This document shows, one piece after another, positions 10,738-53,300 of a stretch of DNA of 64,000 nucleotides. A program made the position numbers and the translations under genes. Location: contig NC_037591.1 of assembly GCF_003073045.1 (NCBI RefSeq), positions 23,531,319 to 23,595,318 on the forward strand, read 5' to 3'. Numbering within the stretch: the stretch's first letter is position 1; every line of letters begins with the position of its first letter. Origin of the DNA: Pomacea canaliculata. Lineage: Eukaryota; Mollusca; Gastropoda; Architaenioglossa; Ampullariidae. A model generated the notes under the pieces. That model saw only the letters and a program-made list of their open reading frames with translations, did no database searches and had not been told where the DNA came from.

Positions 10738-12679
10738 TGTAATGATAAGAGTTATCCCGTGGGGGTGGGGGGACATCCGGGGCTTTATGTTCAGTTTTTT
10801 ATTGACGTGAAGGTTGGCGAGTAGCCATATTGTCTTCTAGTAGAATAAACACGGTTGTCATCAAATCGACAGTCTCTTGTGTTGGTCGGCTGAGAGCTCG
10901 CAGCACGATACATGGTGTCAGAAGTGGGATTGTCATAATCACAGAGAATCAAGCAAGCTGCTGAATCTGATGTTATAACACTTTCAGAAGATGTTGAGGC
11001 ATATTTGAGTAGTGTAGACATTTCGTGGTCATGTGCAGCTTCAGATAAGCGTCTGAAAGAGATTGCAGAAGAGACAAGAAAAGACAGACTGATTCAAGCA
11101 GCAATTCACTACACTAATGAAGGCTGGCCAAAATACATTACAGATGTAGAAGATAATCTTCGTGACTATTATGCAGTGCGCATGGAACTTAGTGTGCACC
11201 ATGGTCTCCTTACCAGAGGAACAGGCATTGTTGTGCCAGCACCACTTCATGATGATATCCTGAAGAGGATACATGAAGGTCATCAAGGAATCACTAAGTG
11301 CAGAGATAGAGCAAAAGCAGCAGTTTGGTGGCCAGGTATTAATGGCAGGATTAAAAGAATTGTTGAAGAATGCAGACATTGCCAGAAGAAGAAACCGACA
11401 CAGAGCAAGGAACCTTTGATACCGACAGAATTACCACAGCGTGTATTCCAGAAGTGTGCAGCAGATTTGCTGGAATTCAAAGGACAATCATACCTTGTGT
11501 TTGTAGATTATTATTCGCGCTTTATTGATCTTGCGCATATCAAGATTAGTACATCAGCAGAAGTTATCAAACTTCTGAAGAGCATGTTTGCACGCCAAGG
11601 AATCCAGAGATTCTTGTTACAGACAATGGAAGGCAATTCACATCTAGGGAGTTCCAGGAATTTGCAGTAAAGTGGGGATTTCAACATGTTACAACAAGTC
11701 CACACTATCCACAAGGTAATGGAGAGGCTGAAAGAGCAGTTCAAATTGCCAAAAAGATTCTGCAGCAAGATGAACCTGAATTAGCTCTATTGATATACAG
11801 AGACACTACTATTTCTGCTACAGGATATAGTCCAGCAGAATTAGCCTGTGGAAGAAAACTAAGAACTACATTACCTACATTGCCTGAGAACCTTGAGTCA
11901 AAGACATTTGATAAAACAGCTGTAACAGCGAGCGATGCAAAAGCAAAGCAGTCTTACAAGAACTGTTTTGACAAGCGTCATGGAGCGCGACCGCTTGACG
12001 AACTGCTTCCAGGCGACACTGTATTGCAGAAGCTAGATGGTGAGAAGCACTGGGGAAGTCCAGCAGTCATTCTGCAGCAGTGTGCTCCAAGGTCATACAT
12101 TGTACAAACTCCAAAAGGTAGTTTTCGACGCAACAGACGTCATCTCAGAAGGTCAAGAAACTTCGAGCCGGAGCAGTCCAGTTCCAAACCCAGTCCTGTC
12201 CAAAATGACTTTTCCCTGTATACTTCCCAAGTCCCAGTGACAGGTGAACCAGAGACAGCGCTTCATATCAGCGATCCTATTCAGTGTCCAGAATCGACGT
12301 CTAGTAAAGGTGGTCCTGCTACAGAAGCCAGACATGGTGCTACTCCAGATCCAGGAGATTCCCATCCCAGTAGCAGCTCTACACCTAGAATGACTCGTAG
12401 CGGCAGAATAATCACCCTGCCCGCACGTCATAAAGACTGATTATGTTTTGAACATTGATTAGAGAGTAAACATTCTCCCCATCAAGTGAAGTATCTCAAG
12501 GGAGGGGAGATGTAATGGTAAGAGTTATCCCGGGGGAGATATCCGGGGCTTTATGTTCAGTTTTTTTATTGACGTGAAGGTTGGCGAGTAGCCATATTGT
12601 CTTCTAGTAGAATAAACACGGTTGTCATCAAATCGACAGTGTCTTGTGTCGGTCGGCTGAGAGCTCGCAGCACGATACA
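10738..12679 (+). mobile_element. Ty3/gypsy LTR-retrotransposon fossil, internally deleted
   Basis: The boundaries are precise. Two LTRs of about 170 bp (10738-10912 and 12511-12679) begin TGTAATG and end ATACA, with a 5-bp target duplication CTTTT at 10733-10737 and 12680-12684. A primer-binding-site-like TGGTGTCAGAAGTGGGAT follows the 5' LTR (10913-10930), and a purine-rich tract precedes the 3' LTR. The internal part holds an integrase region: an HHCC zinc-binding motif with WWPGI and CRHCQKKKP near 11270-11400, a core region with FVDYYSRF, and a C-terminal region to about 12440. Gag, protease and reverse transcriptase are not seen, so most of the coding region is missing; the remainder has at least one further break. 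The LTRs differ at only a handful of sites, suggesting a fairly young insertion. Confidence 0.85.
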
Positions 12680-12846
12680 CTTTTCATGGAGGACTTCGAG
12701 AAGGTGAGCGATGTTCAACATGGCAATTGCAAAGAAATTTACTTTAAAATTTAGACTCCGGTGTTGAAGATGTGCGAAAAAGTGAAAAAAAAATAAAAAC
12801 TTCGTGGGATGTTCAAATGATTATAAGAGAATGTTTCTGGGTCTGA

Positions 12847-15150
12847 TGTTGTGACATAAGGCAAGTGTTGGCCTTAGTTCCGTTTTGGGTTGAATATACT
12901 TGGGCGGGAGCCTACAAGAAGATGTCTCTTGTGCGTGGTCTGACTGGAGAGTTTATTGAATGCCACCTCTCATAATACCCACAAACCAATAACACCACAT
13001 GGTGTCAGAAGTGGGATGCAAAGTGCTAGCTATGTGATTTCTCCAGAAACTTTCAGGTGGGCAAGTTTTTTCCCATTTCAAAATATTGCGCTGTACGTTC
13101 CAGTTCGCAATGTGACATTTCTCGCAGCATGTCTTTATAGTGTGCAGTTGGATGATTCAAAGTTTTGTGTACTCTACATAAGTTTTGACTTGCGGTGCTT
13201 AGTACAAACATTCGTGTACGCCACTTCAAGAACGTTGGTTACTTCATTTTTTTTTTTTTGGTGGACGCCAGCAACATGACAGAGAAAACACTTCACTGCA
13301 AACGTTCCGGTTCCCTCAAAGCTGGATTTGTCTTCTAACATTGAAGTAAATTGGAAAAAATTTCTTCGTCAGTGGCAGAACTATGAGGTAGCTACGTGCC
13401 TTGATAAAGAAGATTCAGCTTATCGTGGTGCAGTTCTATTAGCTTGCATTGGTGAGGACGCACAAGAAATCTACGAAGGATTATTATCCTTTGCAGAAGT
13501 GGAGAACAACAAAGATATTGAGACTGTCATCGACAAGTTCAACGACTTTTGTTTGGGTAGCACACATGAGGTGTGTGAGAGCTACAAGTTTCATAGCCGA
13601 AACCAAAACAAGGATGAGTCAGTTGGTACTTACGTCACAGCTTTACGCAAGTTAGCAAAATCACGTGATTTCAAGGATGTTGACCGCATGATCCGTGACA
13701 GACTTGTGATCGGTGTTCAAGATGACACTATGCGTGAAAAATTGTTGCAGAAGAAAACACTCAAGCTTCCAGAAGCAATAAAAATTTGCAGAGCTCATGA
13801 GACTTCCAAGACTCAAGCACACTCGATGTTGGCAAGCAACAGCGGGAGTACAGTTGAGAAAACCATCAACAAGATTCAGAAAGGTCAGCGAAAAGTTCGT
13901 TGCGGTATGAAGCCAGGCCTTCGGGGAAAACCAGAGACTAAGCCATGCTCTCGATGCGGAAAAGGTTCCTACAACAGAGATGGTTGTCCTGCAAAGAACG
14001 CTAAATGCAGAAAATGTTCCAAGATTGGTGACTACGCTGCAGTCTGTCGCTCTTCAGGTTCTTCTAAGATTCACGCAGTGGAAGAGGAAGAAGAAGAAGC
14101 TTACATGGGTATGATTGTGGGCAGTGTGACAACAGATCCTTGGAAAGTCAGTCTCCTGATGGAAGACGCAGAGAATGTGTTTAAGCTTGACACCGGAGCT
14201 GATGTTACCGTCGTACCTCAGACCGCAGTTCCAGCAGCCAAGCGACCATTGCAGAAAGTACGCAAGAAACTGTATGGTCCAGGTCATGTTGAGATAGCTG
14301 TGGAAGGCATGTTCAAGGCAAAACTGACATAAACACTCGAAGAACCATTGCTAGGTCGACCAGCCATTACAGCGTTGAAGTTGATTGAGAGAATCAACAC
14401 AGTTATAGAGGATCAGGAAAAGCAGTACAAGGAAGAATTCCCAAAACTTTTCAGAGGACTAGGAAGTCTACAAGATCCTTACAAGATTCGTCTGAAAGAA
14501 CAAGCTGTTCCATATGCAGTAGCAGCTCCAAGGCTCTTACCTTTGCCCTTGAAACAGAAAGTCAAGACAGAATTGGATCAACTTGAAGAACGGAGTGATT
14601 CGCACAGTCACCAAGCCCAGTGATTGGTGCGCCCCAATAGTAGTGGTGCCCAAGAGCGACGAGAGTCAGAATCTGCGTCGATCTGAGCAAACTAAACGAG
14701 GCAGTTCGCAGAGAAAACTACCCGTTACCGTCAACAGATGAACTGTTAGCCCAGCTGTCAGGAGCAAAAATGTTCACAAAGCTTGATTGCAAAAAGGGCT
14801 TCCATCAACTTCCACTGGATGAAGGAAGTCAGGAGTTAACAACCTTCATTACACCTTTTGGAAGGTACTGTTATACACGCTTACCCTTCGGGATAAGTTC
14901 AGGCCCAGAAGTATTTCAATGACGAATGTCTCAACTTCTTGCGAACCATGAAAATGTCATTTGTGACATTGACGACCTGCTCATTTTCGGTAAGAACAAG
15001 CAATAACATGATCGTTATTTGAAGAAAGTGATGTCGACGCTTCAAGAAGCGGGCATTACCCTGAACGATGAGAAGTGCCAGTTTGCCAAAGAGAAGATAT
15101 CCTTTCTCGGAGGCCTGCTTATGTCCCCAAAGAGTGACTTCCAGCTAAGA
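12847..15150 (+). mobile_element. Ty3/gypsy LTR-retrotransposon fossil, 3'-truncated
   Basis: A candidate 5' LTR (about 12847-12999) ends in CACCACA and is followed by the same primer-binding-site-like sequence as the neighbouring element (13000-13017). Then come a gag-like region (about 13328-14090) with capsid-type sequence and a Cys-rich zinc-knuckle stretch (CSRCGKGSYNRDGC, then CRKC), an aspartic protease signature (LDTGADVTVV, near 14190), and reverse-transcriptase pieces to about 15120 (KLDCKKGFHQLPL, TRLPFGISSGPEVF). RNase H, integrase and a matching 3' LTR were not found. It is broken in several places in addition to the 3' truncation. It looks older than the element at 10738-12679. 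The exact 3' edge is uncertain. Confidence 0.75.
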
Positions 15151-19162: not shown

Positions 19163-22100
19163 TCAATCGGCTTTGTGCCGCTTCATGTGTATGGACAGCC
19201 CGTAGGCCGATGTGAAAGTGATGCCACACTGCTTGCAGGCGATCTCTCCACCGTGTGTCTTGAGATGGCGCCGCAGGTGGCCCGGCAGTTTGAACTCCGC
19301 CCCGCACTCCTGACACTGGAAGGGTTTGTCGTCCGAGTGCGAGCGCAGGTGCAGCGAGAGGTTGCTAGACTGCGCGAAGGCAGCGCCGCACTGCTCGCAA
19401 ACGAAGGGCCGCTCGCCCGTGTGCTTCCGCTTGTGTACGGCCAGGTCAACGGGTCGCTTGAAGGCCGCATCACACTCCTGGCACTTGAACGGTTTGTGGC
19501 TGGAGTGCGCCGTGCGCGCGTGGAAGAGCAGGTCGCAAGAGCGCTTGAAGGGTGTTTGGCACTGCTGGCAGCGGAAGGGGCGCTCCTCCGAGTGTGTGCG
19601 CATGTGCAAGGCCAGGTCGCTGGAGCGCTTGGTGCGTGCGCCGCACAGCTCGCACATGAAGGGCCGCTGGTCCGTGTGCGTCTTCATGTGCGACTTGAGG
19701 CTGCCGGCCAGCTTGAATGCCGCCGGGCACAGCGTGCACGCATGTGGCCGCTCACTGCTATGTGTCTTCAGGTGTGTCTTCAAGTTGCCGGCGCTGCTCA
19801 GCTGCTTCCAGCACTGGTCGCAGTTGTACACCTTGCCCCCCGCCGCCGACGCCGACGCCGCTGCCGCGGAGCCCTCTCCCAGGGCTTGGACAGCCGCACC
19901 TGGTACCGCCGGCCCTTGCAGGCCTTGGCTCCGGCGCGCACCCGCATATGCCGCCGCAGGGAGCTGGCCTGCGTGAACGTGGTCCCGCAGAACGTACACT
20001 TAAAGGGTTTGTCCCGTGCGCTGGGCGTCTCCCGCTCGTGCAGGCGGGCGTGACGCGACAGGGACCCCGACTGTGAGAACGAGGCCATGCACTGCCTGCA
20101 TCTATAGGGGCGGGGGTCGTTGTGCGTTCGCCTGTGCTTTCGGAAGCTGTCGGAACTGAGGAACGTCTTTGCACACACGCTACAATCCCATTTCTCTTCG
20201 CTTTTCGGTGCCATCGACTGGCGCTCGGCGTCCGGAACTTGCTCCAGATCTGCCATCAATGCTTCTTCGCTCTCCACATCAGTTTGTGCATCTGATTCTA
20301 CTTCCAGTGCGTCGTATTTACTCCCCTGGACACAACTATCCTCATGTTGCTCGGCACTATGCTTTGCAAGCGAATCCAACAGTCCAGAAGCAGCCATAAA
20401 ACTTACATTTTCAGTCTCTCCTGGACTAGCCTCCATTACCTGCAAACTAGTACTGCCTTTGGCTCCATCTACTGACAGTGAAACGGGATTGGGTATCACA
20501 TGTCCGGAATAAGTGGCAAGTCTGTTATTTCTACTTGACCCACATCTTACTATAGGTCTCGCGTCAGATTCATCTGTGAGGTAGTCTTCAGTCTGGTATG
20601 CAGTATCTGCCCACACATTACTAGCGGAAAGTGGCTCATGCACTTCACTAGCTTCCCTATGCCGGCTTGATACTTTCCATTTCCCCTCAAGTAATTTCAA
20701 TTTTGGCCTGCCTTGGTCACATTCTGAAATGACTGATGATGTCCCTTCAACAGGAAGCATGTCAGCATGGGCTGTTTTGGAGTCACTGTCATCTTTCTTT
20801 AAGTCCTTTTTTGAAGAGACGAAACAGGTGGTGCATACCATTTTAAGTGGGCCTTGGCACTGACTGCACTGTCTTCGACACTTGTCATCTTCTGTTGAAT
20901 TTTGATACCTGCAACATAAATATTAAGTACGCTAATCCACAACACTAGCATGCAAGTATGCAGGTACCCAAAGCAAGCATTCATGCATATCCAAAAATGG
21001 AGAAGAATAGAACTGAAAAGAAATCTGTGATTACACCAGATGACTTTACAAGATTAGCAAAATCTCAGGTCAAATCTATGTACAGTGAAACTTCAGAACA
21101 CATGGGTTGCAAAATTAGTAGCAAGGTCACGAGGGCAACGGACGAAAACCAAGACAAATTTTTTTGCGGGGAAAAAAAAAAATCAACGATAACCGAAGTC
21201 AAAGAAAACCGAGGTTTCACTGCAGTAACATAGCCAGCTTCAGATTTACATTCTTACATCACATTATTTAAATTCATCTGAACCTGCAGGTTTTTCATCC
21301 TGCACTCATTCTCTTGCTTGTTTGGGGGGTTTTCTTTTGGGGGTAAACCATTAGTCACTTTACTCATACACAAAATCTTCCTTCTCTTTTTAACCCTAAC
21401 TGAAGCTCAAAACAACTGGCATATTTTCTTTAAAATTACTGTAGACAGCTAGAAAATAAAGCTATAGTTTTCAAAGATCATAATGTAAGCTAAAGAACAT
21501 ATTAACCATGACTGATTCATTTATAGTTGTCTGTCATGGTGCCCTGTACTCCCATCCACCTAAGAATATGTAGGTGAAGGGACTAAAAAAGCAATTATTT
21601 TAACAGACATGGCCATTAACCTCCAAGGTTTTCTTTCCAGAATTCACCAGTTTTCAAGGTGCATTATTTCTAAGGCCTTTAAAGATGGGGGAAAAAACAC
21701 CAATAGCTAGCAAGAAAAGACTGGACGTACAAGCGGAGAAGAAAGATGGCTATCTCTGTGTCTGACTTTAGTCCCTCCTTGTGTCCAAGTTGGCACCACT
21801 GCATGTATGCAGGTTTCTCAAGACAGAGGCAGTATTTTTCAGCACATTTCTTCACTCCACTCCACATTCTGGTAGCTCTCATTTTAGCAACTATTCTTGC
21901 CACTACTTCCTGCAAAGACACAAATAATTCTACACACATGCACAAAATAACTCAAACAGCTTTGCCCTAAAACCTTTACGTTAGACTCATTGCTAAAAAA
22001 AATGGTTTGCATCTAATTTTTGATATGAATATACCAAACCCCCATAGAAAACAATACATTTTGGCAAATATTTTAAAGTTTAATTTTAATTTCAACTGGG

Positions 22101-22792
22101 CACATCCCCACCCACAAAAACTCTCTTCTACTCACTTATAATAATCATCGTCATCGTGGAAAAGTGTGATTACAAACCTGTGATGACCTTTTAGGAAAAC
22201 CACTACAATGGGTTTTTTTCAGTTTTTTCTTTTTCCCTCCTCTTTGCTTCTCCAGACAGAATGATGAAGTTTCCTTGTTATCAACAGTATTTAAAATGCC
22301 ATTCTTTTCTTTCCTTTTATTTGGTGCTTTGTTCACATGTACTATCTTCTCCAAAGAGATTCTGCTACTGCATTTGCTTTTCCAGTCTGTGCTATTGCCA
22401 TCACAGCACTCTGAAAAGAAATTTCTATCACTTGCTTCTACTGTATCTCCCTGTTTCACATGGCTGAAAAGGCCAATATTAGTAAACAATACATCTGCTG
22501 GTGATTCTGCATTTTTATTCACACTTTGCCTGCTTTTCACAGTCTCAAGCTTCCCAGCTGCACATACATTTTTACTAACCACATTTGCATCATCCATGGT
22601 CATGGATACAGCTGTTTGGCCAGTCCTCAGAAATGTGTCCAGCTGTCTATCTGTGCCATCAGAACAATGTTTTTCATCAAGGTCTTCTTGTCTTTCTTGT
22701 GCCAGCTCAGTTAATCCTGCAGTTGTGGGAAGTCTTCTCAGCACTGAATCAGGTACTGCATTTACAGAATAGTCAGTGCCTTCAATATCCAT
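19163..22792 (-). CDS. C2H2 zinc-finger protein, paralogue A (apparent frameshift)
   Basis: Three minus-strand coding exons: 22792-22178 (ATG at 22792; 205 codons, acidic and Ser/Thr-rich, ending in a Lys-rich stretch), 21909-21731, and 20908-19163 (stop at the 19163 end). Exon 2 carries MQWCQLGHKEGLKSDTEIA. Exon 3 opens with YQNS and a CSQC-x7-CTTC cluster; both features are shared with the neighbour at 24306-27608. About eleven C2H2 fingers follow. The third ends HMRVRA instead of H-x3-H, and the fourth is YNCDQCWKQL. The exon lengths sum to 2540 nt, one base away from a multiple of three: fingers 1-3 and fingers 4-11 are in different frames, and the shift falls near a run of six C at 19836-19841. 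A consensus error in GC-rich sequence or a real lesion are both possible. Finger number and linkers suggest a DNA-binding nuclear factor; targets unknown. Confidence 0.75.
21083..21222. mobile_element. Short pogo-type MITE
   Basis: The left end CAGTGAAACTTC (after TA at 21081-21082) and the right end GAGGTTTCACTG form imperfect inverted repeats close to the CAGTGATACCTCGG termini of the element at 107-793. About 140 bp, non-coding, in an intron of zinc-finger paralogue A. The TA target site on the right side is not preserved. Confidence 0.5.
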
Positions 22793-24305
22793 CTTCAACT
22801 TATCAGTTTGCAATAGAATCTTGCAGTTTTGTTGTACTTGCACTAATCATAGTGCTGCTGATCCCAACTGTAGCTGTGTAAAAAAAAGAAAAAAGATTCT
22901 TTCAGTATTTAACACAAATGACTTACATTTTATAAATTCCCTGTATGGGATTTTCTTCGAAATGACTCCATTCACATGGAAACTGAATTCACAAATGAAT
23001 TTGGTAGTATTAGTTTTTGATGACTCCAATGCATAACATGTACAAGCAAACACAGCGCACTGTAATACAAGGTTTATACTTGCTCTCGTCCTACACAGTA
23101 AATTATGGGAGTTTAATGCTATTGATAACAATTTATCCCAGGCAGCTATTGCTTGAGATTTATACAGCAACAGTAAAATGCAGTTAACTCTATGGCATAC
23201 AGTTTCATTTTTGTATCCCTTTAGCTCTAGAAACCTGCCCATAAAATAGCTATCATAGTTAATAAATCTCAGTCATTAACCTTATACCTGAATAAGTCCA
23301 ATAGGTTTTACCACATGCACTCCGTTTTATTTCGCATTTTTCGTTATCGCTTGCTTTCAGTGTTACGGCCTTAGCTTTTGCCACAAATTGTTTAAAAAAA
23401 TAGTATTGTAACAAGGAGCTGGTCACTAAAACAAAAGAAAAGAAAAATTCAATGTTTCAGAATGTTCAACTCTATGTGTTCTCTATGTTCCATACCGAAG
23501 TGGAAATTTGCCATTGGCTGTAGAAAAGTAAATTTTTAGTTTCGTAATTTTCTTATTTTTAATTTATATTAAAAGTTCGTACATTTATTTATGAACTATA
23601 TAGACTCTCAAAACTGTATTAATTAAGTCTCTAGTGCTATGAATATATGTAAGATTTTGCATTAAGTAAAACTTTCAAAATTTTTCTTCCTATCTGTAGA
23701 GATGTGAAAAGGATTATGGGAAAGTTTGTTGTTAGTGAATCTAGTGTTAAACTGTAAGTGTTACAACAATTGTTTTCAACATTATATTATATTAGTATCT
23801 TTACACGGAAATGTTGGTAGCAATATACATTGCATTAGTCTGCATCGAGTCCTTGGATAAAAGGATGCAATAGCCTTCGTAGCTCATTTATCGCCATCTT
23901 GCGACTCTCTGATACAAACAAGGAGATATATAAATATTATATCGTGAACATTTTCATGGTTTATAGACACTGTCATGAATACAGAGTTATATGGAGCATT
24001 CAGTATTGTCCAAATCGACTGCTCCGCAAACTCTTATTGTAGTTTATCCATCCTACCAAAAAGTGTATTTCTACGAGTCCTATGCTGAACCTCTTTATGT
24101 TATTATTACTGCGGGGTACTGTTAGGGATGCATATAACAATAAATGGCTATGTCACAAGACATAGAAACATGCGACTTATGATTAATTTTTTTTTTAAAA
24201 AAAACCTTTAAACTTTATTCTATTTAAAGTCATAGTTGGTTGCATTAAATTTATGAAAGTGCTTCTTTGTTTTTCTTAATGTAATTGCTTTGATGACAGT
24301 AATAA
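22793..24305. promoter_or_regulatory. Shared upstream region of two divergent zinc-finger genes
   Basis: About 1.5 kb of AT-rich DNA lies between the two start codons. Both genes must have their promoters and 5' untranslated exons here unless they use distant first exons. No TATA box or CpG-rich core stands out. A minus-strand acceptor-like TTTTTTACACAG sits near 22873, so paralogue A may have an untranslated first exon. Confidence 0.4.
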
Positions 24306-27300
24306 ATGGAACAACACAGCTTTCAACACATCCAGCTACAATCATACTTGCATCCAGAAACCTCTTCTGTTGGAACCATGGATGCAGTTGGGTCAGAGAG
24401 AGAACTTGTTTATGGAGATGAAGTTATACAAGATGGAGAAAAGGAGGCAGAAAAACTAATCATGGAGGCCAAGAAATGGACCGCTTCAGATTATCCTGTC
24501 AACCCACCAGAATTGCAGCTTACTGCAGTCCCATTTTACAAGGGATTTAGTGAGGGTGGATTGACTGTTCAAGAACTTCCATCTTACAGAGACCTTCAAA
24601 CCGCGCCAATGGTAAAACAGCCAATTCTTAACAATGGGGTCTGTGAACCACCAGAAAGTCAGAAGACTTCATATGATAGTAGCATTACTTCAGACAACTC
24701 ACACATGCCTTATGCTAGTGAAATCCAACATTTCAGAGAGGATCAGTATTCTCCCAGTCCTTCCAAAGAAATGCACAGATTTACTCAAGTCCTACCTGCA
24801 GATAACAAAGAGACTAGAATTGTAGAGAAAGAAGGAAACTTTTTTGTCAGTGGGAGTACTAATCACAAGACAGATACAGAAGAAGTCAGTACAGAAGCAG
24901 AGCAAACAAAGGAAGTGTCTGCAGATGATTCTGAAACCGATGTTGAAGGAAATAATGATGACACCTACCCATGTAAGAAAGTGCAGGGACAGAAGGTGAA
25001 AGAAAAGATTCAAGAAGTTACAGAAACCTGGGAAGGAGACATTTTAGAGGGAAGTGGTAGGCGAAGAAATCAGGATAGACGTTCTCCTCGACTTTCGTTG
25101 GTAAGTCTGTGACGTGTTACTGTAGTTATATGTGTTGTGATTCATTTTATTTATTTTTTTGTAGCCTCTTACTTTTTAACTATTTGATTATCTGATGATA
25201 TAGTTTTCTCATTTTTTTTTTAGTAAGTAGACTAAACCATTTCTGCCTAGTTTCCAAACAAAAGCAGAGTAGGATGCAATCAGCAATGACAATAAAACAG
25301 AATAGAAGCAGAAATATTTGGATTTGAAATGAAATAAAATCAATGTGTACAGTTATATCATTCTCATTATTATTTAATGTTTACTCATATTTGCTAAGCC
25401 TATCTATTTATTAACGTGGACAAGGAAGTCTAGTTATGATTAATTTTTCTGCCATCATTGTAGAGGAACAAGGTTGTAACAGTCCAGACAATGGGCGAGA
25501 TTGTGCTTCCAGCCAATTTCAAGTCACCTGTATGGGAATACTTCAGCTTCCAGGTCTCCGATGTAGAGGGAGGACATAAAATGGTTTCAAAGAATGTCTC
25601 GGTGTGCCGACTATGTAAAACTCATGTCAGATGTATGGGCAACACAACAAATATGGCCACTCATTTAAAGCGGCATCATCCAGAGATTGAGCTCTTTGAG
25701 GCAAAAGAAAAAGAGAAAAAGGTGAAAGGTCATTATTCTTTTTGAGAAGGATTCATTTATTGCATCACTGATCATGATACTGATCTTCCCCATAGTTATC
25801 TTACTTTGTCTTGTCATTGCTATCTCTCTGTAAACATCATCATATTTGTTATAGAGGCATAGATGAACAACCAACAATTTTTCTTTTTTATCTGGAATGT
25901 AAGCAATGATAATGCCTTAATAGATAAAAATTCAAGTCAGGCTGGAATGTGAGACAGTTAAGTTTACTAGTCTTTGTTAATAATCTGGATATATTATGCC
26001 TTGTACTCTAGCATTCCTCCACAAAGTCTTCATCAAAGATCAAGAGAAAAACATCATCACCTCCACCACCACTGTTACCACCACCGCCATCACCAGAGAG
26101 GCAAGAGAAGAAGCAAAAGAAGTTCAAACCTTCACAGAAAAGCTCTTTGCCAGAGCTGAAAATAGACGGGGATGTGTTTGACCGATGGTGGCGTTTTGGG
26201 ACCGCACAAGGGCTAGATTCGGATGAGGAGATTGCAAGCTTTCTTTTGTGCCAGTAAGTAGGCAAGCATTTCTTGTCTGTTTGCTGTGAAGATGCTGTTT
26301 CAGTATTAGCTTTGCTTTCAAACATTTATCATGAGCATAAACCTGCAGTATGATAATTATTGATTTTTTTTTTGTGTTAACAGCTATGAGAGTTCCATGA
26401 AAAATGTCCAGCCTGGTTCTTGTCAGAGTTGCCAGGCTCCCATTACCATGCTGTGTGCAAAGTGTATCTTTACCTTTGAGGCTATGCCATCACAGCCATC
26501 CAAGGTTGAAGAAGGAAAAATTAAAGATGAAGCAGAAGCTTCAGATCATGAAATGGCTGATAGTGGGGACCCTTATGTGTCAGCAGATGAGGTTCCTGTT
26601 AAGTTTGCAGAGCCTGCCTCTGGTCAGTCATCTCCAACCAAGAAGCAGATTTTGCTTCGTACGAAAAGAAAATTCCGAAAGAGGCCCATGCAACGTCGAG
26701 AAAGTGTTAAAGTATACAGATGTGAGCAGTGTGTGGCTGTCTTTAAGCATCCCAAGTCCTTGGAGAACCACATGCAGACTCACACAGATAACAGACCATT
26801 CAAATGCCAAGAATGTGAGACTGCTTTCAAACGATCAAGTGATCTGGCAGTACACATGCGAACACACACAGGTGAGAGACCTTACAAGTGTGAGTTATGT
26901 GAAGCAGCTTTTACGCAGTCTTGTGCCCTATCCCGTCACATTCGCACACACCCAGGTGCTGTGCCAGTGAGACGAAGAAAGTTGAAATCTGCCTTGGCAC
27001 AGGCACACATGAAGGGTGTGAGAGGACCCAAACCCAAGGGGCCTAAAGTCTACAATTGTGACCAGTGCTGGAAGTCATTTCGGAGTTCTAGCAACCTTAA
27101 AGTTCACATGAGAATACACACTGGAGAAAGACCATATACATGTGAGGTGTGTGGAGCAACCTTTACTCAGTCAAGTGCTTTGTCTTTGCACAAACGCACT
27201 CATCAGCAGGAAAGGCCTTTCAAATGCAACCAGTGTGATGGATCCTTCAAACGTTCAAGCGATTTGGCAATCCACATGCGTACACACACTGGGGAAAGAC

Positions 27301-27608
27301 CTTATGTTTGTGAGCTGTGTGGCTCAGCCTTTGCTCAGCTTAGCACCTTGACAATCCACATGTCATCACATTCTGACAATAAACCTTATAAGTGTCAGGA
27401 ATGTGGCATGATGTTCAAGCTGACATCACACTTGCAACGCCACTTGAAGACTCATGTAGGTCACGTCCCTTGCGATCACTGTGGCGCAATGTTCAAATCA
27501 CCTGTTGCATTAGCAAGGCATGTCAGGAAACATTCATCACCAGATGGGGCTCTTGTGTCTCCAGAAAGATTTGTGAACATGGAAAGTGCAATGCCGTTGG
27601 GGGTTTGA
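24306..27608 (+). CDS. BED- and C2H2-type zinc-finger protein, paralogue B
   Basis: Four exons join in frame: 24306-25100, 25464-25721, 26012-26253 and 26384-27608 (839 aa). Residues 1-265 are acidic and low in structure. Exon 2 encodes a BED-type finger: a VWEYFSF aromatic motif, CRLC, then HLKRHH. Exon 3 has a Pro-rich stretch, then FDRWWRFGTAQGLDSDEEIA. Exon 4 opens with YESS and a CQSC-x7-CAKC cluster, then nine C2H2 fingers, several with TGERPY-type linkers. The WW/GL-SD-E block, the double-CxxC cluster and the phase-2 intron between them match paralogue A at 19163-22792, transcribed the other way. A nuclear, sequence-specific DNA-binding regulator is the likely role; no orthologue name is assigned. 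BED domains often derive from hAT transposases, so domestication in its past is possible. Confidence 0.88.
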
Positions 27609-50374: not shown

Positions 50375-53300
50375 ATGGTGAGAAATTAAATTACATTTTA
50401 AAAAATGTGGTTCCTTTTTTAAATGATAGTAAATATATTGTTTGTTCATTGAGCATCGTGCACCAGTCCACGTATACTGCTCAGTTAACCATTCTCAAAC
50501 TTAGAAGTCAGTGAATAAGTGATAGCACGAATTTGGTGATAGCTTTCTCAAGAGTTACTGTAGTTTTTGAAAACGTGTTGTTTTATGTCATTACAGAAAG
50601 CATCTATAGTGTATATTGGACACGGTACAAAGTATCGTTGCAACAACTAATTAATGTCGATCGAATAGTGTCAAAAGAGACAAGGAGAAGTTTATTCTTT
50701 ATTCTGTATTTTGTTTTTGTACGATTGCATAAAAGATTAAATTGTCATCACTATCACAATGCAGACACTATATGTCATAAATCCTTAATGTTTGAGACAG
50801 TATGTCAGCAGTGTTAATTAACATTCTTCTGACCTTCGATCTCATTCAATCACTATAGCTGTTGCAGCATGAACGTTGATTTAATTACTATTATGTTTGT
50901 TTCGCCATCAACAAGGACTGCACTAGTAGTTATGTCAAACTGCTGTGAGCGTGACAGCATGAGCTTGGAGGCTTGGTTATTATCATGTTATCTTTAAGGC
51001 TGCCAGCCAAAAAGATATAAAAAGCATATTTGATGTGGTTTTTTTCACTTATTGTTTATATAGAGAGTTTCGATCAGTTCTTGCTCTGCAGCATTCATGT
51101 TTTCATTTTGGTAATACAGTACTTACTTTCTAATTTGTGGTTATCTTTCTGGTCTTGATTTTGTGTTTGTGAGCTGTTATACACGTAACAAGTACTTGTA
51201 ATGGCATGTGGAGGAAAACTGCAGCTGTCCAACATATATGTACATTCTTATAGACAAATGTGTTTTACCACATTTTATTAAAAAAAATAATAATAATAAT
51301 AAATGCAAAATTTGTAAAGCGCACACTCACACTCCTAAGGAGCATGCTTTTAAAGCTTAATAACAATAACGAAACATGGACAGTATATGAGGGACAGGAA
51401 AACAAATAACATATGAACATATAAAAGAATAAACAACCTTACTAAACAAAGAATAAAATAAAAAAGGAACCAAATAACAAGAACAAAAGTTGAGAGTAAC
51501 ATGATATTGCATAAGGAAGGGTGTGAAAAAAGGACTAGCATTATGGGAAAGGTTGTTAGGGTAATGTTTGCGGAATAGGTGTGTTTTCAGTGCACGTTTA
51601 AAGGATTCAATCGTGGGTAGGTTGTGGATATGGAAAGGGAGAGAGTTCCATTGTTTTGCTGCACAATATCTGAAAATCCTTTGGCCATATATTGTTGTTT
51701 TGGTGACAGGAAGCATAAGGAGACAATCATCAGATGAGGAGTGGAGTTGTCTATAGCTAGGATGTAAAGGAAAAGCAGTTCAGAGAAATAATCAGGGCAG
51801 GTGCCAGCAAAGAAATTAAAACACATCATGGACAGTTTGTACTGGATGCAAGAACCGATGGGAAGCCAATGTAGAAAACGAGGGAGAGGGTTGGGGTGGT
51901 CCCGTTTCCTAGCTCTAAGCACCAGATGCGCAGCAGAGTTCTGTACATTCTGGAGTTTGTGAAGAAGGTATTCAGGGCAGCCAGCAGGCAAGGAGTTGCA
52001 GAAATCAGGTCTGGATAAAACAAACAAACAGACAAGAGTGTTGGTACCGTGCGTAGACAGAATGTGATGGATGGCGCTGATCTTGCGTAGTTCATGATAG
52101 GCAGACTGACAGACAGCTGTAACTTGTTTAGCAAGAGTCATTTTTGCAGTGACAATGAATCCCAGATTCCTGATGGAGGATGCAAAGGTGATGTTAGTTT
52201 TGCCCACCTTGATGTGACTTGGTGGACAAATGAGTGAAGATGGATTTCTTCTTCTGGATCATAAGAAGGCTTCCGTTTTATCATCATTGAGTTTAAGTTT
52301 GTTTGACACCATCCAGTCTTTAACTTCATTAATACAGACTTCTATGGTGCTGGTAGCAGAGTGAGACAGCCGGTGAAGTGGAGCAGTCCAGCTGTGTATC
52401 ATCAGCATATGATTGATGAGAAATGTTGTGAGACTGGATGCAAGATGAAAGTGGCTTCGTATACAAAATGAAGAGACTGGGCCGAGTATTGAGCCTTGAG
52501 GGATGCCACAAGAAAGTGGAGCAGGGCGAGATGTTTGACCATCAACAAACACAGGATGCATCCTACCAGTGAGATAGGAGTTGAACCACACTAGTGCTGG
52601 TTCAGAAATCCTTTAGAGGGTGTGTAGTCTATGAAGGAGTAGAGAGTGGTCGATGGTGTCGAATGCAGCAGACAGGTCCAGTAGAGCTAAGGCAGAAACA
52701 TCACCACTGTCAAGAGCAGATAATATGTCAGTGGTCACTTTAATTAGTTTCAGTACTGTGAAAAGGTCTATATGCTGAGTATGGGGGATGAGCTGGTGCT
52801 CTTGTAAGTAGTCCCAGAGCTGTGTCAAAACTACTTTCTCTATGATCTTTGAGAGAAAATACAAGTTGAAAACTGGGAAATAATTGTTCCACACATTGAC
52901 ATCAAACGTGGATTTCTTAAGAAGTGGCTTCACCAGGGCACTGTTAAACAAAAATGGAAAAACATCTGATGACAAGCTGATATTTACAATGTTTGTAATG
53001 GAAGGAAATAAAATATCTAAGCATTCAAGAAGAAAACTTGTGGGCATTGGGTCTAACTGGCAAGTTGTTGGCTTGGCATTTAGAATAATCGGCTTTATAT
53101 CAGCTCAAAGACTGGTCGAAATTTGGTCATAGAGCATCCAAGAAGAATATTACAGGAGATGCTGGCAGGCACCAATAGCGAGTCCAAGGATGATCGAAAT
53201 CTTGTTAGCAAAATAGTCACAAAATACTTGTGGCTATCTGCGAAGCAGGATAGGCAGTGGGCAGTGGCATTGCCTTGCTGATTGCAGTCATTCGATTGCA

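Follow-up and report, generated by a model that had tools for sequence, protein, structure and literature searches.

Two C2H2 zinc-finger genes that stand head to head in the genome of Pomacea canaliculata carry a short module in front of their fingers, and this locus raises three questions: whether the module belongs to these two genes alone, what kind of fold it may adopt, and whether the genes arose as an inverted duplicate. The two genes, here called gene A (minus strand) and gene B (plus strand), lie in a window of 64,000 nucleotides (contig NC_037591.1, positions 23,531,319 to 23,595,318), and the genome searched comprises 440 Mb in 24 contigs, with the window on the contig designated C2. 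According to passages of its description, the published assembly has 14 chromosomes and 440 Mb and is long-read based (PMC6129957). The novelty lies in the family that carries the module, and in a possible ribbon-helix-helix (RHH) fold, rather than in the A/B pair. We see an even chance that the first part of the module, hereafter the block, is an old RHH-like dimerisation domain which, together with a zinc hairpin, heads a clustered C2H2 family, with A and B as one old inverted pair within it.

The order of elements is the same in both genes: the block (WCQLGHKEGLKSDTEIAIFLL in gene A, WWRFGTAQGLDSDEEIASFLL in gene B), a phase-2 intron that follows FLL-x-x, and beyond it Y-x-[NS]-S with C-x2-C-x7-C-x2-C (YQNSTEDDKCRRQCSQCQGPLKMVCTTC in gene A, YESSMKNVQPGSCQSCQAPITMLCAKC in gene B), followed by the fingers in the same exon. 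The earlier note had described a shared block, a phase-2 intron at the same residue, the tyrosine motif and the double CxxC, and our reading of exons and splice sites agrees with it on each of these.

The module heads a clustered family

As a property of the pair alone, the module had been drawn too narrowly. A search of the genome with the block consensus returned 22 places on two chromosomes at an expectation value (E) of 10 or below, 17 on C2 and five on the contig designated C14, and 12 of the 22 reach E < 2e-4; gene B scores E 5e-9 with this family consensus, gene A only 0.08. In contrast to this confinement to two contigs, the 150 scored of 2848 C2H2 candidates are spread over 13 contigs. 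Searches with the single block exons at E<=1 gave eight places for gene A and 13 for gene B, the queries themselves included, and one weak place from each (C2:10691315 and C2:12626878) did not recur with the consensus. The consensus of the double-CxxC stretch listed 14 places, again on C2 and C14 only, and missed gene A's own stretch, so that the counts from consensus searches are lower bounds. A query made from a divergent subtype matched only its own two members in the genome, and a single-protein query found no relative in viral contigs.

Family hidden Markov models (HMMs) run on the fetched loci sharpen this picture. The block model finds 22 blocks above 19 bits, 15 of them its own sequences (all under 1e-15 in this small search) and the other seven at 19.6-40.3 bits. 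Behind 20 of the 22, the double-CxxC model scores above 14 bits (13 own sequences, the other seven at 15.4-39.2); a weaker stretch of 7.0 bits at C2:22822383 was accepted by hand, and the model found none in the fetched locus behind the block at C2:18865518. The splice phase is conserved as well, with a GT in the phase-2 position at 21 of 22 loci, the remaining copy (C2:30213811) having no intron. Twenty loci have both the intron and the CxxC stretch, and in 17 of them the acceptor reads AG-N-TAY, which puts a single base ahead of the Tyr codon (exceptions C14:15813451, C2:21150823 and C2:22822383). Of the 22 loci, 20 have C2H2 fingers on the same strand within ~7 kb downstream, a pairing made by position rather than from transcripts; none were seen downstream of C2:18865518, where the nearest listed fingers are 27 kb off, or in the 5.7 kb read behind C2:30213811.

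Constraint on the two parts was measured at the 14 of 22 loci with enough sequence. Pairs scoring above the 95% point of shuffled pairs number 91 of 91 for the block, 89 of 91 for the double CxxC and 5 of 91 for the next 40 residues. The block and the CxxC pair are conserved in the clustered family; the stretch behind both is not. What emerges is a family-specific N-terminal element in many clustered paralogues, with a conserved splice phase and fingers downstream.

Some individual members deserve mention in their own right. At C2:30213811-30214029 the block and double CxxC are joined without an intron behind an Arg-rich lead, and this copy may be a retrocopy or an old single-copy form. C2:21174552 and C2:21180754 are an inverted pair with the same module, closer than A and B, with blocks 76% identical. 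The neighbouring members at C2:21590755 and C2:21597329 share a short upstream piece around PEDY and a C-terminal CFPMQH.

No known domain model covers the module

The earlier note could match the module to no nameable domain, and database searches bear this out: it is covered by none of the models in Pfam or NCBIfam and by no solved structure in the PDB, sequence searches included. Pfam reports nothing over the module in gene A (first 612 residues) or gene B, and no family at E<=10 for 15 blocks or for three longer strings (one a consensus); NCBIfam gives nothing for the same three strings. Among PDB sequences nothing was found for the block, and no RHH chain. For the CxxC part, Pfam yields scattered zinc-ribbon or B-box half matches in 3 to 5 of 13 stretches (best E 0.001), and PDB sequences yield weak half matches, for example to the TRIM28 B-box (E 0.013). 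PHROGs returned a single weak match (E 0.3).

A possible ribbon-helix-helix fold of the block

AlphaFold, run on A and B, places helices at 25-37 and 43-51, with a predicted local distance difference test score (pLDDT) of ~76-88 there; the two helices, the short turn and their spacing are as in known RHH members. Foldseek against 350,542 PDB chains gave 19 matches at E<=10 (E 3-10), including NikR, CopG, the MukBEF-MatP complex, 1y9b and the DNA complexes 7vp3, 7vp4 and 7vp6, and all 19 presumably have the RHH or the RHH-like TCP fold. VIA-align lays NikR 1-37 over model positions 16-52, with the strand region covered.

The paralogues themselves point in the same direction. In an alignment of 19 of the 22 loci, with rows entered by hand, all 19 rows have a hydrophobic residue in columns 3, 5, 13, 16, 22, 28, 31 and 32. 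Within the strand-like lead this leaves columns 3 and 5 hydrophobic throughout and columns 2 and 4 mixed, as an RHH fold predicts; the monomer model assigns no strand. Compared by hhalign with nine hand-aligned RHH sequences, the paralogue alignment scores 17.7 (P 6e-4 for one comparison), free of gaps over 36 columns and in the expected register. Correcting six split-codon letters (column 35) brings the score to 17.5, an RHH alignment made by MAFFT raises it to 19.1, and leaving out the designed RHH protein lowers it to 15.4. Column shuffles stay below 17.7 in all 600 cases (maxima 13.6 and 15.3), and the best of 313 windows taken from unrelated proteins scores 13.2; as a positive control, Arc against the other RHH sequences scores 14.1, below the snail family.

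Several results nevertheless weigh against an RHH assignment. The other six RHH groups score 31-43, far above the snail family. The family's own score falls to 12.5 when Arc is left out and to 14.5 when CopG goes together with its designed relative, and RHH sequences taken singly mostly lie within the null. Both nulls, moreover, favour the RHH claim, because the natural-protein null has few multi-sequence families and column shuffles destroy helix periodicity. At the level of sequence the block does not join the RHH class, as the Pfam and NCBIfam RHH models and the PDB RHH chains gave no match.

Set beside the MetJ/Arc/CopG class, the block has the same strand-like lead, helix, Gly turn and helix, in a gapless register of 36 columns to Arc, NikR and CopG. 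It differs in belonging to an animal, in having few basic strand residues and in being followed by a zinc hairpin and C2H2 fingers, and also in a profile score well below most true RHH groups and in the lack of any HMMER match to Pfam RHH models. RHH domains are otherwise known from bacteria, archaea, phages and (as TCP) plants; among the matches listed in the open-access literature, no text links the fold with animal zinc fingers.

The alternative that survives best takes the block for a simple helical hairpin on which a co-repressor or chromatin factor docks, in the manner of KRAB; it would neither adopt an RHH fold nor form a dimer, and the zinc hairpin would stabilise it. Conserved polar positions would suit such a surface (Arg at column 12 in 13 of 19 rows, Asp at column 25 in 17, Glu at column 37 in 16), and the RHH scores are each weak. 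The alternating strand pattern, strict in every row, would however be superfluous in a docking hairpin, and the structural matches, 19 of 19, presumably fall into one topology class. We regard a docking hairpin as unlikely, if a serious contender.

The earlier suggestion of a small, novel metal-binding or interaction module holds up partly, in that the double CxxC looks like a zinc hairpin; the block has the look of a dimerisation fold of RHH type and not of a metal site. The predicted structure of the double CxxC had a mean pLDDT of 49 and was not used.

Layout and relationship of genes A and B

Within the window, the two genes read as follows, with splice sites read from the bases by eye.

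22178..22792, minus strand: gene A upstream coding exon, an open frame from the predicted start MDIEGTDYS, with donor CAG/GTTTGT by eye
21731..21909, minus strand: gene A block exon, block proper at ~21731-21834, phase-2 end
20908-19163, minus strand: gene A last exon, beginning with Y-x-N-S and the CxxC pair
20803..20907, minus strand: gene A Y-x-N-S and CxxC-x7-CxxC, family HMM 48.5 bits (gene A is among the model's own sequences)
19930..20192 (approximate), minus strand: gene A first finger set, two standard fingers and one without the last His
19798..19999, minus strand: gene A frame-change linker, in which the reading frame switches
19163..19831, minus strand: gene A second finger set, 8 fingers, the first VYNCDQCWK
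24306..25100, plus strand: gene B, the first coding exon found, predicted start either 24306 or 24380
25464..25721, plus strand: gene B BED finger exon, Pfam zf-BED
26012..26253, plus strand: gene B block exon, block at 26153-26253, predicted helix-turn-helix with strand-like lead, phase-2 end
26385..26483, plus strand: gene B Y-E-S-S and CxxC-x7-CxxC, opening the last exon (26384-27608)
26720..27540 (approximate), plus strand: gene B array of nine C2H2 fingers, split by a long linker into three and six, the six beginning with VYNCDQCWK (27048)

The intron behind the block exon reads CGCTT/GTACGT...TTGCAG/G TAT in gene A and TGCCA/GTAAGT...TTAACAG/C TAT in gene B, in phase 2 in both. The opposite orientation at a distance of about 1.5 kb, as described earlier, is upheld in the form of head-to-head predicted starts (22792 for gene A; 24306 or 24380 for gene B), and the correspondence in finger order likewise stands, covering the last four fingers and a YNCDQCWK finger after a long linker in both genes. 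Gene B in addition combines the module and its C2H2 fingers with a BED finger (Pfam zf-BED, 24.7 bits against a cut-off of 20.6, profile 1-44 of 44), and the genome shows no other match to the BED exon at E<=0.01. The guanine plus cytosine (GC) content of the second finger array of gene A (19163-19820) is 63%, against 47% for the fingers of gene B and 40% for the window.

Whether A and B are each other's closest relatives depends on which part is asked. The genome encodes VYNCDQCWK at exactly two places, one in A and one in B (reversed-pattern control 0). In gapped scores among 23 multi-finger frames fetched, A and B included, which are a part of the genome's fingers, each is the other's best match (591 from A to B, with 553 for the runner-up; 521 from B to A, with 460 for the runner-up). 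Their last four fingers are identical at 63 of 107 positions, the next best at 52 of 107, and a finger tree of 22 rows, one of the 23 frames having been dropped for coverage, groups them as sisters with 79% bootstrap and 61.9% in the Shimodaira-Hasegawa-like approximate likelihood ratio test (SH-aLRT). The module tree (21 rows) never does so: none of its 200 bootstrap trees joins A and B as sisters, though 15 of 18 inner branches are open. In tblastn pieces, five places elsewhere outscore gene B (149.5 bits) for gene A, the best being C2:25877748 at 189.5 bits, while gene A is the best, narrowly, for gene B (152.8 against 150.0 bits); gene A has two extra fingers, so that its match to B is split in such pieces.

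The trees divide accordingly on the earlier test of sisterhood, that of the fingers in favour and that of the module, poorly resolved, offering no support; and of the proposed inverted duplication, what stands is that the fingers favour A and B as old inverted duplicates, with finger-tree support that is not strong. On this comparison of sequences, A and B are probably an old inverted duplicate pair. The opposing account makes them non-sisters: the module would be family-wide, and the likeness of the fingers would reflect shared finger types or gene conversion between neighbours. It can point to the module-tree bootstraps, to the tblastn piece at C2:25877748 with B's narrow margin for A, and to the GC content of A's second finger set (63% against 40%), but it must contend with a finger string found genome-wide only in these two genes, with their reciprocal best scores, and with the finger identities and tree, and we judge it improbable.

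The frame change in gene A

The fingers of gene A lie in two reading frames, and the switch falls between 19798 and 19999, in a GC-rich linker with a six-G run. No second copy of this region was found in the genome. The change may be an assembly indel or a real, recent break; single-base errors are common in long-read assemblies. A programmed frameshift or tiny intron was looked for by eye, and no fitting site was seen in the linker. Were gene A a pseudogene, the pair would be one working gene and one relic, as the frame change itself and the finger just before it, which lacks the last His, would suggest. Eight intact fingers follow the change, however, the splice sites and module are intact, and the GC-rich, six-G context belongs to an assembly that passages of its description call long-read based (PMC6129957); a relic strikes us as a poor bet.

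Elsewhere in the window, reading by eye picks out retroelement-like gag/pol pieces in several frames, with knuckle and integrase-like motifs, at 10939-14332 (plus strand), and reverse-transcriptase-like fragments at 51587-53104 (minus strand).

How the module might work

SCAN, ZAD and BTB domains dimerise finger proteins in other lineages, and the snail module could act in a comparable way. Its block of ~38 residues would form a short strand with alternating hydrophobics, then a helix with a conserved Trp at its centre; a G-L-x-[ST]-D turn would cap a second helix ending in Y-E-[NS]-[ST], directly behind which C-x2-C-x7-C-x2-C would make a minimal zinc hairpin. Two chains might pair through a two-stranded ribbon and packed helices, giving homo- or heterodimers, with the CxxC pair binding one zinc and closing the end of helix 2, and such a dimer would set two finger arrays on DNA. 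Among the outward strand residues, column 4 has five acidic and two basic of 19, and column 6 has 12 acidic and one basic; being more often acidic than basic, they make pairing likelier than DNA contact.

The bacterial RHH fold usually reads DNA through its ribbon, but that the snail block does the same, lengthening the recognition site of the fingers, is very improbable, since its outward strand positions are seldom basic, even though seven of 22 loci have at least 10 Lys/Arg within the 40 residues that precede the block (leads that are open frames, with exons unproven).

A possible counterpart in human ZNF692

A lead beyond molluscs comes from human ZNF692, whose N-terminus is presumably an Arg-rich stretch followed by a block-like pattern; all ZNF692 scores here refer to a provisional version of that sequence. 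A joint model of block and double CxxC (21 rows, with intron-read letters at split-codon column 35) gives it 23.3 bits, against at most 11.1 in the 4703 reported of 5000 shuffles, and hhalign gives a probability of 96% and a score of 38.0, against at most 17.1 in 200 shuffles. In pairwise comparison 16 of the 21 rows score above all 300 shuffles and the other five do not, the highest score being that of C2:21174552 (88). Taken singly, the block model reaches 5.8 bits, a score as high in 2 of 2000 shuffles (1099 reported), and the CxxC model -0.8 bits, as high in 527 of 1605 reported shuffles. The stretch scores 11.6 against the RHH profile, within the null, and has no match in Pfam; by its fingers, likewise in a provisional sequence, no ZNF692 orthologue appears in the snail genome at E<=1e-20.

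On this provisional sequence, ZNF692 resembles the snail module in the succession of block, Tyr and first CxxC; it differs in that a second CxxC is not evident, the CxxC model alone finds no match and the RHH score is weak. Residues 3-33 of ZNF692 carry an Arg-rich motif and a nucleolar signal, according to passages of one study (PMC10956046), and would fit the part in front of the block.

Relation to other zinc-finger families

Like FiNZ, KRAB, ZAD and SCAN, the snail module is a short conserved N-terminal element at the head of an expanded C2H2 family. It differs from three of these in that Pfam reports no KRAB, SCAN or ZAD model for gene A (first 612 residues), gene B or the aligned modules, which places it outside the KRAB family. 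ZAD has two CxxC pairs with a long stretch between, whereas the snail pairs stand 7 residues apart, and the module is not a ZAD. With B-box and zinc-ribbon hairpins it shares P-L-x-L-x-C-x2-C around the second CxxC; a B-box, however, has eight metal ligands and two zinc sites, and the snail module, with four ligands, a 7-residue loop and no second zinc site conserved, is not one. FiNZ, likened here by description only, is 28 residues long and without similarity to known domains in the account available in passages (PMC10547256). The same study describes a response to transposons for KRAB and FiNZ families, and puts the number of frames with at least five fingers above a thousand in many molluscs (PMC10547256); in listings and passages of the open-licence literature, no molluscan element of the KRAB, ZAD or FiNZ kind is named. 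For the snail family, a role against transposons is only an analogy.

Tentatively, and a little short of an even chance, animals may have an RHH domain as a dimerisation head for C2H2 proteins, present in a single gene (ZNF692) in humans and amplified and clustered on two chromosomes in this snail, as a molluscan counterpart of the KRAB-, ZAD- and FiNZ-zinc-finger families that may be shaped by transposon control. If the module is shared with ZNF692, the human gene gains a defined domain, and if the module is RHH-like, animals would use for dimerisation a fold of bacterial repressors. N-terminal elements such as KRAB, ZAD and FiNZ are the handle that links finger expansions to transposon silencing or chromatin, and for molluscs this module, conserved and unnamed and with a fold that can be tested, would provide one.

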